Origin: Acidobacteriota bacterium
GTDB taxonomy: Bacteria; Acidobacteriota; Blastocatellia; Pyrinomonadales; Pyrinomonadaceae
DNA length: 64,000 nt
Direction: 5' to 3'
Assembly (NCBI GenBank): GCA_003697135.1
Contig: RFGC01000035.1
Location: 310,001-374,000, forward strand
Position numbers and translations under genes: made by a program. A model generated the notes under the pieces. It had not been told where the DNA came from and ran no database searches. It saw only the letters and a program-made list of their open reading frames with translations. Positions 20,410-25,254 of the stretch are shown here, piece after piece; the stretch's first letter is position 1, and each line of letters starts with the position of its first letter.

Positions 20410-21774
20410 ATGGAAGGTGCGAAAATCTTGGTTGTTGAAGATGAAGAGCTAATGCGGGCTATTCTAGAAGAATTGCTTTCAAGCGAGGGCTACAAAGTTT
20501 TCACAGCCGATTCAGCAGAATCCGCAATTGAAAAATTTTCCAGTGAAGACATTGATTTAACAATCGCCGATATAAGAATGGCTGGAATGGATGGACTTGA
20601 ACTCCTTGACAAAATCAAATCAATTGATGAGGAAGCTCTTGTGATAATCATAACAGCATACTCTTCGGTTGATTCAGCAATTTCAGCACTTCGCAAAGGC
20701 GCCTATGACTATATCACCAAGCCGTTTGTGAATGAAGATTTACTTCAAACCGTCAAAAATGCTCTGCGTCAGCGGGAGCTTTTTCGGGAAAATCGGTATC
20801 TGCGAAGGGAACTAAACAAAAAATACGGATTTTCCGAAATAATCGGCATGTCTGAGAGTTTGCAAAAAGTTTTTCGCCTTATAGAAAAAGTTTCTACAAC
20901 CGATGCCAGCGTTTTAATCGAGGGCGAAAGCGGAACCGGTAAAGAGCTTGTTGCGAGAGCAATTCACCACAACAGCCACCGCTCTGACAAACCTTTTATA
21001 GCAATTAACTGCGCAGCTATTCCTGAAACACTACTCGAATCAGAACTTTTCGGACACACAAAAGGAGCTTTCACAGACGCAAAGTTTGAAAGAAAAGGGC
21101 TTTTTCGTTCTGCTGATGGTGGCACTGTTTTTCTCGATGAAATAAGCGAAATGCCTCATTCGCTTCAGGTCAAACTCTTGCGGACATTACAAGAGCAAGA
21201 AGTAACTCCCATTGGTTCAAACATTCCTGTTAAATTCAACGTCAGAATCATATCAGCAACAAATCGCAATCTCGAAGAAGAAGTTAAAATGGGCAGATTT
21301 CGTGAAGACTTGTTTTATCGGCTTAGCGTGATAGAGATAAAACTCCCGCCGCTTAGAGAGCGCAGAGAAGATATTCCACTACTTGCAAAGCATTTCATCA
21401 AAAAAATTGCTCGACGTCTAAACATGCCGGAAAAAAATATATCGAGAGAAGTAATGGCAATGCTAACTGCATACGATTGGCCTGGAAATGTTCGCGAACT
21501 AGAAAATGCTATAGAGAGAGCTTTTATTTTGTCTTCTGGCGATGAGATAAAACCCGAAAACCTCCCGCCTCGAATTCCTGCATCATCTCAAGGCGCTTTT
21601 GAAATCAACGATCCACTCGGTTATCGTCCTACGCTAGAGGAAATGGAACGAAGATACATAATGGAAGTTCTAAAGTCAACCGGCTACGACAAGACCGAAA
21701 CCGCAAGAATCTTAGGCATAGACCTTTCGACACTCTATCGAAAACTTAAAAGATATGAAGCAAGAGAAGGCTAG
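20410..21774 (+). CDS. NtrC-family response regulator, sigma-54 activator
   Basis: 454 residues. The receiver domain (1-120) keeps the acidic pocket (Glu10, Asp11), the phosphate acceptor Asp54 in TIAD, and Lys104 in TKPF. The AAA+ domain (about 142-380) has Walker A GESGTGKE (172-179) and the sigma-54 contact loop GAFTDA (219-224). A Fis-type helix-turn-helix closes the protein (about 412-450, TETARILGIDLSTLYRKLKR). It should activate sigma-54 promoters on phosphorylation by a histidine kinase. No kinase is next to it, and no sigma-54 gene is in the window. It ends 23 bases from the convergent blh gene, so a link to the rhodopsin locus is positional only. Confidence 0.92.
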   Translation: MEGAKILVVEDEELMRAILEELLSSEGYKVFTADSAESAIEKFSSEDIDLTIADIRMAGMDGLELLDKIKSIDEEALVIIITAYSSVDSAISALRKGAYDYITKPFVNEDLLQTVKNALRQRELFRENRYLRRELNKKYGFSEIIGMSESLQKVFRLIEKVSTTDASVLIEGESGTGKELVARAIHHNSHRSDKPFIAINCAAIPETLLESELFGHTKGAFTDAKFERKGLFRSADGGTVFLDEISEMPHSLQVKLLRTLQEQEVTPIGSNIPVKFNVRIISATNRNLEEEVKMGRFREDLFYRLSVIEIKLPPLRERREDIPLLAKHFIKKIARRLNMPEKNISREVMAMLTAYDWPGNVRELENAIERAFILSSGDEIKPENLPPRIPASSQGAFEINDPLGYRPTLEEMERRYIMEVLKSTGYDKTETARILGIDLSTLYRKLKRYEAREG

Positions 21775-21797: not shown

Positions 21798-22754
21798 TTA
21801 GATAAGGGATTTTGCCTGCACCGATTGCATAACTTGATGTTCAGAGTAGATAAATCTGCCTAGTTTTTCCAAAAATAAAACAACTAATGCATGTGGTAAA
21901 GTTAGCGCAGAAAGAAAAATCAAGAAGATTTCCACCACTGAGGTTGAAATAAACTGCTGTTGATGCCAGATCAGGAGCATCAAAACAATAGAAATGAGAG
22001 TTACAGGCAAGACACGCAAATGAAATCGCCATAAATTTTGCCATAACGAAAACACATCTGGCAAATCTTGTTTCTCATGGAAACAAATCCTCAAAAAATG
22101 TCGCCATGAATGAACGCATATAAAGTAAATTGCTACTGCAAAAAGCGGAGAGGGAACAAGCCAAAAGAAAATAATGATTAGTATAGACTCCAAATCAAAA
22201 AAGGAAAGTTTTCCTCTAAGGAGAACAGAGAGCAAAGACAAAAAAAGCCCTAAAAAGAAAAGAAGAGATGAAGCTGAAATTATCAAACTTGAGCCTTTAG
22301 CACTTAGCTTTGATAAAACCAACTGGCTTTCTAGCGGATGGAGAAATAGAGAAGCGGAAAGGACAATCAAACCGCGTCCGAGTGAATTCATGATAAAAAG
22401 TCTGTTCTGTTGCTCCCAGATTGCGTCTCCACTCCCAAAGTGCCAGATTGAGAGAAGAAAAAAAGCCACTAAACCCATTGACGGAGAAATCAGCCAAAGA
22501 ACAACTACAGACAAAACTAATAACAAATAAACTGCTAAAAGAGTGCTAAAACGAAATTTTGTTTTTTGACTCAATTGGCAAATAATACGAAAATCCTCAG
22601 CACCGTGAGGAATCCCGAGCAAAAGTGCACTTGCAATGAAGAGTCGGCCTCCCCAAACCTCCAAGTTGCTACCGACAATAACACTAAACAGCCAGCTTGC
22701 GAGCAGGCTTATCCATGGAATCAGATAAAGCAAAATCCAAGCTCTTTGATTCAT
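21798..22754 (-). CDS. blh: Beta-carotene 15,15'-dioxygenase, Brp/Blh type (makes retinal)
   Basis: 318 residues, about eight hydrophobic helices. The histidines that bind iron in Blh enzymes can be matched: IPHGAEDFR near residue 50, SIWHFGSGD near 105, VHSWRHF near 215 and LPHALVV near 288. It cleaves beta-carotene symmetrically to two all-trans retinal molecules in the membrane, giving the rhodopsin chromophore. Its ATG lies inside the end of crtY, a 71-base overlap in another frame, so the two are translationally coupled. I kept this start because it provides the first membrane helix (WILLYLIPWISLLASWLF). It is the third gene after the rhodopsin on the same strand. Confidence 0.9.
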   Translation of the reverse strand: MNQRAWILLYLIPWISLLASWLFSVIVGSNLEVWGGRLFIASALLLGIPHGAEDFRIICQLSQKTKFRFSTLLAVYLLLVLSVVVLWLISPSMGLVAFFLLSIWHFGSGDAIWEQQNRLFIMNSLGRGLIVLSASLFLHPLESQLVLSKLSAKGSSLIISASSLLFFLGLFLSLLSVLLRGKLSFFDLESILIIIFFWLVPSPLFAVAIYFICVHSWRHFLRICFHEKQDLPDVFSLWQNLWRFHLRVLPVTLISIVLMLLIWHQQQFISTSVVEIFLIFLSALTLPHALVVLFLEKLGRFIYSEHQVMQSVQAKSLI

Positions 22755-23941: not shown

Positions 23942-23981
23942 AGATGCTTGAGGTCCATAAATGAACCTCAAGCATCTTTTT
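23942..23981. other. Perfect 13-bp stem-loop between rhodopsin and crtY
   Basis: AGATGCTTGAGGT (23942-23954) pairs exactly with ACCTCAAGCATCT (23965-23977) around a ten-base loop. Five T follow on the plus strand, so it reads as an intrinsic terminator for antisense transcription. On the minus strand, the sense strand of the operon, the stem has no U tract after it. There it may instead protect or process the 3' end of the rhodopsin message and lower crtY-blh expression. Confidence 0.7.
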
Positions 23982-24030: not shown

Positions 24031-24879
24031 TCAAGCTGGTAGCGGTTGTGCTCCAGCAATTTCTTTTGCAGGACTACGACGTTCAAGAAGCTGTCGGCCA
24101 GCCATGTAAACTACAATTCCCGGAGCAATCTTGTTTACTTGGTCTCCGATATTATAAACGATATGAACAATGTTCAGGTCGAATTGTGGAAAGATCGCAG
24201 GAATCATGTATCCAATCGGGTAAATTCCCCAACCTGTGACAATAAAAATCGCCATGACCTTGTAAGCCCATTGTTCTTCAGGTTCAGCATCCTTGGCCAT
24301 ATTCCTAACAGTCGTGAAAATTATGTAAACGATGCCAAGATAGCCTATGGTTGAAATCGCACCCCACAAAAGATGAGTAGAAGGAACCGCTACGTATTGT
24401 TCACCGATAAACCCAGTTACAATCATGAAAACATCGGCAATAATCAGAGCCGTAATAACCCCTCCTACCTTGCGCCCAGCGGCAACAGCTAATGGGATTT
24501 TTGCAACCAGAAGCGGCGTCGTAATCAGCCAGTCCATATAACGGTAATTGATAATCCCGAAAAACGATTTCTTAGTGATTTCCAAATAGTTTGCCCCACC
24601 TTTTGCCAAGTCCTCTGCCAAAAGTGGCAGTGTAGTCTCAGCATAAAGAGTTTTCATGTAGAAATAGTGAAAAGCCGCAATCCCGACTATCAAGGCTGAA
24701 AGCACTAAAGCGGTCCTATATTCAGGCGCTACATTGTTGCGTTGTGCCAAGAAAAAAACAAAAGCCGCTCCCATCGAAATGTAAGCGACAAAGAAAGTAA
24801 AGTTGACTATCATCGGCAGAATGCCGACATCAGTCGCATTTATCAGACTGGTCACGAAAGCAATCGTCGTGTGTTCCAT
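24031..24879 (-). CDS. Microbial rhodopsin, probable outward proton pump of DTK type
   Basis: 282 residues, seven membrane helices. Retinal would attach to Lys250 in helix G (NIGDQVNK), with Asp246 as part of the counter-ion. Helix C reads RYMDWLITTPLLVAK. Asp116 is the proton acceptor, Thr120 is conserved, and Lys127 sits where proteorhodopsins have Glu108 and bacteriorhodopsin has Asp96. Exiguobacterium sibiricum rhodopsin also has Lys there and pumps protons. His71 in helix B matches the His that pairs with the acceptor in proteorhodopsin, and Leu124 at the spectral-tuning site suggests green absorption. A strong GGGAGG ribosome site lies upstream. No Gly is evident at the carotenoid-antenna position, but that alignment is uncertain. 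Confidence 0.93.
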   Translation of the reverse strand: MEHTTIAFVTSLINATDVGILPMIVNFTFFVAYISMGAAFVFFLAQRNNVAPEYRTALVLSALIVGIAAFHYFYMKTLYAETTLPLLAEDLAKGGANYLEITKKSFFGIINYRYMDWLITTPLLVAKIPLAVAAGRKVGGVITALIIADVFMIVTGFIGEQYVAVPSTHLLWGAISTIGYLGIVYIIFTTVRNMAKDAEPEEQWAYKVMAIFIVTGWGIYPIGYMIPAIFPQFDLNIVHIVYNIGDQVNKIAPGIVVYMAGRQLLERRSPAKEIAGAQPLPA

Positions 24880-24902
24880 CTTTTAACCTCCCGTCTTTTT
24901 AG

Positions 24903-24932
24903 TATTAAGATGATTGCAAATAAATCGCTCAA
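24903..24932 (-). promoter_or_regulatory. Candidate rhodopsin promoter
   Basis: On the minus strand TTGAGC (24927-24932) and TTAATA (24903-24908) are 18 bases apart. A GGGAGG ribosome site lies between them and the ATG. Both hexamers are imperfect. Confidence 0.4.
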
Positions 24933-24939
24933 ATCGCTC
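24922..24939. repeat. Tandem 9-base repeat overlapping the candidate rhodopsin -35
   Basis: AAATCGCTC occurs twice without a gap (24922-24930 and 24931-24939). It covers the presumed -35 box and could be a regulator site or a chance duplication. Confidence 0.5.
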
Positions 24940-25254
24940 TTTTTTCATGAAAAAATTTGTGGTAATATCGGGAGAACGATACTGGAAGAACTACAAAACA
25001 GGAAGTCACAAGCTTTCTGGGATCAAACCGATTAGTGTCGCTGAGTGAGTTGCTGTTAAGGCTTTGGAATTTGAGTTATGAAGTCATTAAAGCTCTTGAA
25101 ACTCGGGAGAAAAATTAGGCAAAGGCGCAAACCATTTGGAGTTGGCCTAAAACGTTCTCCAAAGCCCAATCTTTGATAGTTATGTCTGTCTGACTTCCGA
25201 TGTAGATCAGAATTCAGACTTTGAAAGACACATTAAACAGCAAGTTTTATTGTC

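Follow-up and report, generated by a model that had tools for sequence, protein, structure and literature searches.

A Lys-type microbial rhodopsin with a retinal gene cassette in Pyrinomonadaceae (Acidobacteriota), predicted to be a light-driven proton pump

Results

A rhodopsin gene followed by crtY-type and blh genes

The window, that is, the whole 64,000-nucleotide stretch of DNA analysed here, carries a rhodopsin gene with two further genes downstream on the same strand (Table 1). A sequence-only reading of this DNA had placed the rhodopsin at 24031-24879, which proved exact, and was silent on the strand. The gene lies on the minus strand, where 24879-24031 is an open reading frame with an ATG start; the plus strand of the interval is interrupted by stop codons. 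The product scored 142.7 bits against the Pfam family Bac_rhodopsin (cut-off 24.6). Its AlphaFold2 model (mean pLDDT 91.9) matched solved seven-helix rhodopsins, the top PDB fold match being the Exiguobacterium sibiricum rhodopsin (ESR, 4hyj), and the alignment put Asp246 four residues before the retinal lysine, Lys250. The Pfam score, the modelled seven-helix fold and the helix-G Lys with an Asp four residues before it identify the protein as a type-1 microbial rhodopsin. A genome search found it to be the sole rhodopsin in the 2.79-Mb genome.

Table 1 Features of the rhodopsin locus (positions in the window)
Feature	Position	Strand	Basis or remark
Type-1 rhodopsin gene	24031..24879	minus	282 aa; ORF, Pfam PF01036, column mapping, AF2 model, PDB fold match
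Non-coding leader	24880..25254	minus	5' of rhodopsin; GGAGG-type ribosome site just before ATG
Intercistronic RNA hairpin, 16-bp stem	23942..23977	minus	between rhodopsin and crtY; z -4.3
Lycopene cyclase family gene (crtY-type), 408 aa	22684..23910	minus	PF05834 169 bits
Brp/Blh dioxygenase gene (blh)	21798..22754	minus	PF15461 144 bits; TIGR03753 153.9 bits, cut-off 95.25

A promoter and terminator scan performed no better than on shuffled sequences, and in the leader no promoter stood above chance. The crtY-type product matched TIGR01790 under the family cut-off; its homologues, 43-48% identical, adjoin the rhodopsin in three relatives. The crtY and blh genes overlap by 71 bases. The order rhodopsin-crtY-blh is found in all four Pyrinomonadaceae cassettes (the window, L009, L172 and L173), and the outer flanks of the window cassette are unlike those of the three relatives. 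No sensory transducer gene adjoins the rhodopsin among the neighbouring ORFs in the window.

The hairpin between rhodopsin and crtY occurs at the same place in the three relatives (z -3.4, -5.6 and -2.8). Its position is kept among the four cassettes while its sequence differs, and it has no T run. Recurrence at the same site with different sequences suggests a role in setting the rhodopsin and enzyme mRNA levels apart.

The same genome also contains crtB and crtI elsewhere. Since crtB, crtI, crtY and blh are all present, the genome would be able to make beta-carotene and retinal, judging from gene family membership. A second crtI-family gene, nearest to CrtD, lies at G000:C12:252039-253511; a CrtD-like desaturase suggests further carotenoids, which are possible antenna pigments.

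The donor-position lysine is genuine and conserved

Alignment with ESR brought His71, Asp116, Thr120, Lys127 and Lys250 onto His57, Asp85, Thr89, Lys96 and Lys225 of ESR, column for column, and the numbering that the sequence-only reading had given to the five residues is right. An Asp acceptor, Thr and Lys stand at the bacteriorhodopsin 85, 89 and 96 positions (a DTK motif), and they are kept in four species. A genome scan detected a homologue with 71% identity in one MAG of the Pyrinomonadaceae (locus L009) and, among 162 genomes of the class, more homologues in G447 and G448 (L091 and L092); a further locus, L093, is the L009 genome again. With the window included, four Pyrinomonadaceae species are counted. 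The rhodopsins of the three other species are 68-75% identical to the window protein. His71, Asp116, Thr120, Thr121, Leu124, Lys127, Asp149, Gly173 and Lys250 are invariant in the four proteins.

Codon 127 reads AAA, and because Lys is found here in all four species, a sequencing error or chance at this codon is excluded: the donor-position Lys is real. The acidobacterial source held up as well. The GC content of the cassette (0.403) matches that of the window (0.409), and recA-, bipA- and miaA-like genes flank the cassette on a contig of 516 kb, which makes contamination unlikely; the kinship table also places the genome (G000) in one family with the Pyrinomonadaceae genome G440/G560. With four species of this family, a Lys-type rhodopsin does occur in a lineage far from Bacillota (Firmicutes), as had been proposed. 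The residues, their conservation, the cassette, the fold and the family are shown by the analysis itself.

Rhodopsins are rare in the phylum Acidobacteriota, being borne by 7 of the 396 genomes sampled. We rejected a recent gain argued from absence in the congener (G001): its contig C17 stops inside the sigma-54 regulator and C20 begins beside bipA, so that the assembly breaks off to the left and right of where the cassette would be and the absence is uninformative.

Residues accompanying the lysine, and a putative antenna window

In a comparison of group consensus sequences, Thr121 and Asp149 were common to HeimdallR1 and every bacterial Lys protein; the proteins with Glu and those of Poseidoniales had Val at 121 and Ala or Ser at 149. 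The pair corresponds to Thr90 and Asp115 of bacteriorhodopsin, in an alignment with a stretch of that protein identical to the PDB sequence. The Pyrinomonadaceae rhodopsins also have a long B-C connection, modelled by AlphaFold2 as helical extensions: 40-45 residues lie between His71 and Asp116. The planctomycete DTE proteins have 39 here, and most other rhodopsins have 22-34.

Gly173 aligns with Gly156 of xanthorhodopsin (XR), and Gly occupies this position in all four species, as in antenna-type (fenestrated) rhodopsins. A residue of the XR Gly156 type defines the carotenoid-antenna window in XR and Kin4B8 (PMC13093654), and by analogy a lateral opening for a carotenoid antenna may exist at Gly173. 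In the alignment this site is Tyr in ESR, Leu in Poseidoniales and Gly in HeimdallR1. Among the sequences compared, the joining of a Lys donor with the Gly window in the acidobacterial clade appears to be new in bacteria; HeimdallR1 has both.

Phylogenetic placement

We gathered 160 rhodopsin loci from Acidobacteriota, from the two phyla to which a Balneolaceae MAG and a planctomycete belong, and from the Exiguobacterium order, Poseidoniales and plasmids. A donor Lys was seen in Pyrinomonadaceae, in a second acidobacterial clade (L005, L095 and L096), in all of the Exiguobacterium proteins fetched, in the planctomycete protein L138, in Poseidoniales and in PDB 9jtq (HeimdallR1). The plasmids yielded only distant rhodopsins with other motifs, and the viral contigs yielded no relative in a first scan and only a DTE proteorhodopsin in a second.

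The four Pyrinomonadaceae rhodopsins form one clade (100/99). The trees place this clade tentatively beside HeimdallR1 (92/86; 95/86 without the donor columns), whose row is long-branched and partial, and a grouping of HeimdallR1 with Poseidoniales was not rejected (p 0.078). All of the Lys lineages and the Glu-donor planctomycetes fall in one group (93/93; 87/81 without the donor columns; 83/58 without the long rows). The best trees do not group the window protein with Exiguobacterium apart from other lineages; ESR itself clusters with planctomycete proteins and with acidobacterial ones from outside the Pyrinomonadaceae clade. Uniting the window and ESR lineages without the Glu-donor planctomycetes was rejected (AU p 0.001), whereas their wider union with the planctomycetes was not (p 0.054; p 0.5 without the long rows). 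The sequence-only reading had called the protein strikingly close to ESR. That description suits the helix-C stretch but not the whole protein, in view of the rejected ESR-only clade and of the overall identities: 40% to HeimdallR1, 40% to planctomycete L138, 38% to Poseidoniales, 35% to XR and 34% to ESR. In these comparisons the Pyrinomonadaceae rhodopsins are a lineage of their own, nothing marks ESR as their nearest kin, and their deep placement is unsettled.

The characterised relatives resemble the window protein in different respects. HeimdallR1, whose source study is probably that of Tzlil et al. 2025, shares Asp-Thr-Lys, the Thr-Asp pair and the Gly at the antenna-window site, but differs in its 40-42% identity, long branch, archaeal host (Heimdallarchaeia, Asgard) and B-C span of 30 residues. 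ESR shares the five aligned functional residues and the Thr-Asp pair and is the closest fold match, but has Tyr in place of Gly at the antenna-window site; at the Exiguobacterium loci examined, no crtY or blh homologue was detected within about 5-6 kb of the rhodopsin. XR (3ddl) and the XR-like proteins of other Blastocatellia share the Gly, but have a Glu donor and form a separate clade (100/100). The 'SP' proteorhodopsins of Poseidoniales (Rinke et al., PMC6461757) share the Lys donor, His and Asp, but differ in the residues at 121 (Val), 149 (Ala) and the antenna-window site (Leu) and in their B-C span of 22.

The trees also bear on the origin of the lysine. Lys127 of a Lys-driven pump might be a separate acquisition of Pyrinomonadaceae, in a proteorhodopsin or xanthorhodopsin that had a Glu donor before, an origin made conceivable by the weak deep nodes (83/58 to 93/93) and by the remaining rhodopsins that the survey found in this class, which are Glu-donor XR-like proteins (L002, L089, L090 and L094). 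We consider this unlikely, since in the best tree with the donor and neighbouring columns removed, which joins all Lys lineages and the planctomycetes, two K/E changes suffice, and since Thr121 and Asp149 are also common to the bacterial Lys proteins and HeimdallR1.

Predicted proton pumping with a lysine donor

The window protein is probably an outward light-driven proton pump with Lys127 as its internal proton donor. Pumping, the donor role, the colour and the antenna are taken here from characterised relatives. The nearest solved structures by sequence, ESR 4hyj and HeimdallR1 9jtq, are both light-driven proton pumps, the latter according to the description in its PDB entry. In ESR the donor Lys is uncharged in the dark, loads a cytoplasmic proton and then gives it to the Schiff base, and a Lys swapped into a Glu-type proteorhodopsin also acts as the donor in a protein that pumps (PMC8387761). 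In ESR and in the proteorhodopsin variant PR-E108K, the pKa of proton uptake by this Lys is about 7-9 (PMC8387761). Because Lys works in both ESR and proteorhodopsin, it is likely to be functional here in the same fold.

In the proposed mechanism, CrtB, CrtI and CrtY would supply beta-carotene, Blh would convert it to retinal, and the retinal would form a protonated Schiff base with Lys250. On illumination the retinal would isomerise, and the Schiff-base proton would pass to Asp116, which His71 tunes, before leaving the cell at a later stage. Lys127 would be neutral in the dark, as in ESR; only after deprotonation of the Schiff base would it be protonated from the cytoplasm and then pass the proton on, the reverse of the order followed by Glu and Asp donors. 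Green absorption is predicted from Leu124, by a tuning rule derived from proteorhodopsin. A Na+ or Cl- pump was rejected, as the NDQ and NTQ motifs are missing.

The protein could also pump protons without Lys127 as the main donor, with slow reprotonation from the cytoplasm directly or from another group. Some DTX rhodopsins (DTG, DTS) are able to pump although their donor position holds neither a carboxylate nor a Lys (PMC10154332), and the helix-C neighbours in the clade are slightly unlike those in ESR (V125, A126 and I128 vs L, V and F). Such a pump is nevertheless improbable here, given that Lys is strict in the four species, at protein identities of 68-75%, is missing from the rest of the wider group only in the planctomycete Glu proteins, and serves as the donor in two different backgrounds. 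A light sensor instead of an energy converter is more improbable still: a sigma-54 response regulator does lie past blh on the opposite strand (20410-21774) and the genome has a single rhodopsin, but the protein retains the donor and acceptor residues of pumps, the donor position of sensory proteorhodopsins is occupied by Phe or Ser (PMC6461757), and no sigma-54 regulator stands beside the cassette in L009.

Relation to known Lys-donor rhodopsins

The sequence-only reading implied that a Lys donor outside Firmicutes would be new, which does not hold: the Lys-donor 'SP' proteorhodopsins of Poseidoniales were already described (PMC6461757), and HeimdallR1 (9jtq) is also of the DTK type. A branch around ESR with a deviating position 96 was noted in a 2026 paper (PMC13043013), and Glu-donor proteorhodopsins are known in Acidobacteriota (PMC11561045). 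In our literature search, which was short on subscription papers, no Lys-donor rhodopsin was reported from Acidobacteriota. We place the protein in a small, previously known class of pumps, in which the combination of Lys donor and antenna window in bacteria is the part worth testing.

ESR is the Lys-donor pump studied in depth. The Pyrinomonadaceae proteins add to it a group of distant relatives that is conserved and comes with all the genes of a retinal cassette. This group offers a way to test whether the Lys donor was invented once, long ago, whether the shared Thr-Asp pair accompanies it, and whether it can cooperate with a carotenoid antenna in bacteria. A far-reaching and, taken as a whole, rather doubtful scenario would make the window protein the first bacterial pump to join a Lys donor with a carotenoid antenna, of common origin with the Asgard HeimdallR via gene transfer, the Lys being an old cross-domain trait that reverted to Glu in planctomycetes.

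Additional Lys-donor rhodopsins were noticed during the survey. In planctomycete G972 (L138/L174), the Lys rhodopsin adjoins a divergent crtY, a crtI-like gene, a probable crtB and an RPE65-type carotenoid oxygenase, and no blh was seen at this locus. In Exiguobacterium alkaliphilum (G561), the rhodopsin match L105 contains one in-frame TAG, possibly at the very end, and is possibly a pseudogene. The second acidobacterial Lys clade (L005, L095 and L096, from G281, G513 and G543), which belongs to another order, has Asn instead of His (N-DTTK), so that the acceptor side varies among Lys-type proteins and should behave differently in this clade. L005 is 55% identical to ESR, and in the L095 genome the rhodopsin is clustered with crtI, crtY and blh (L176).
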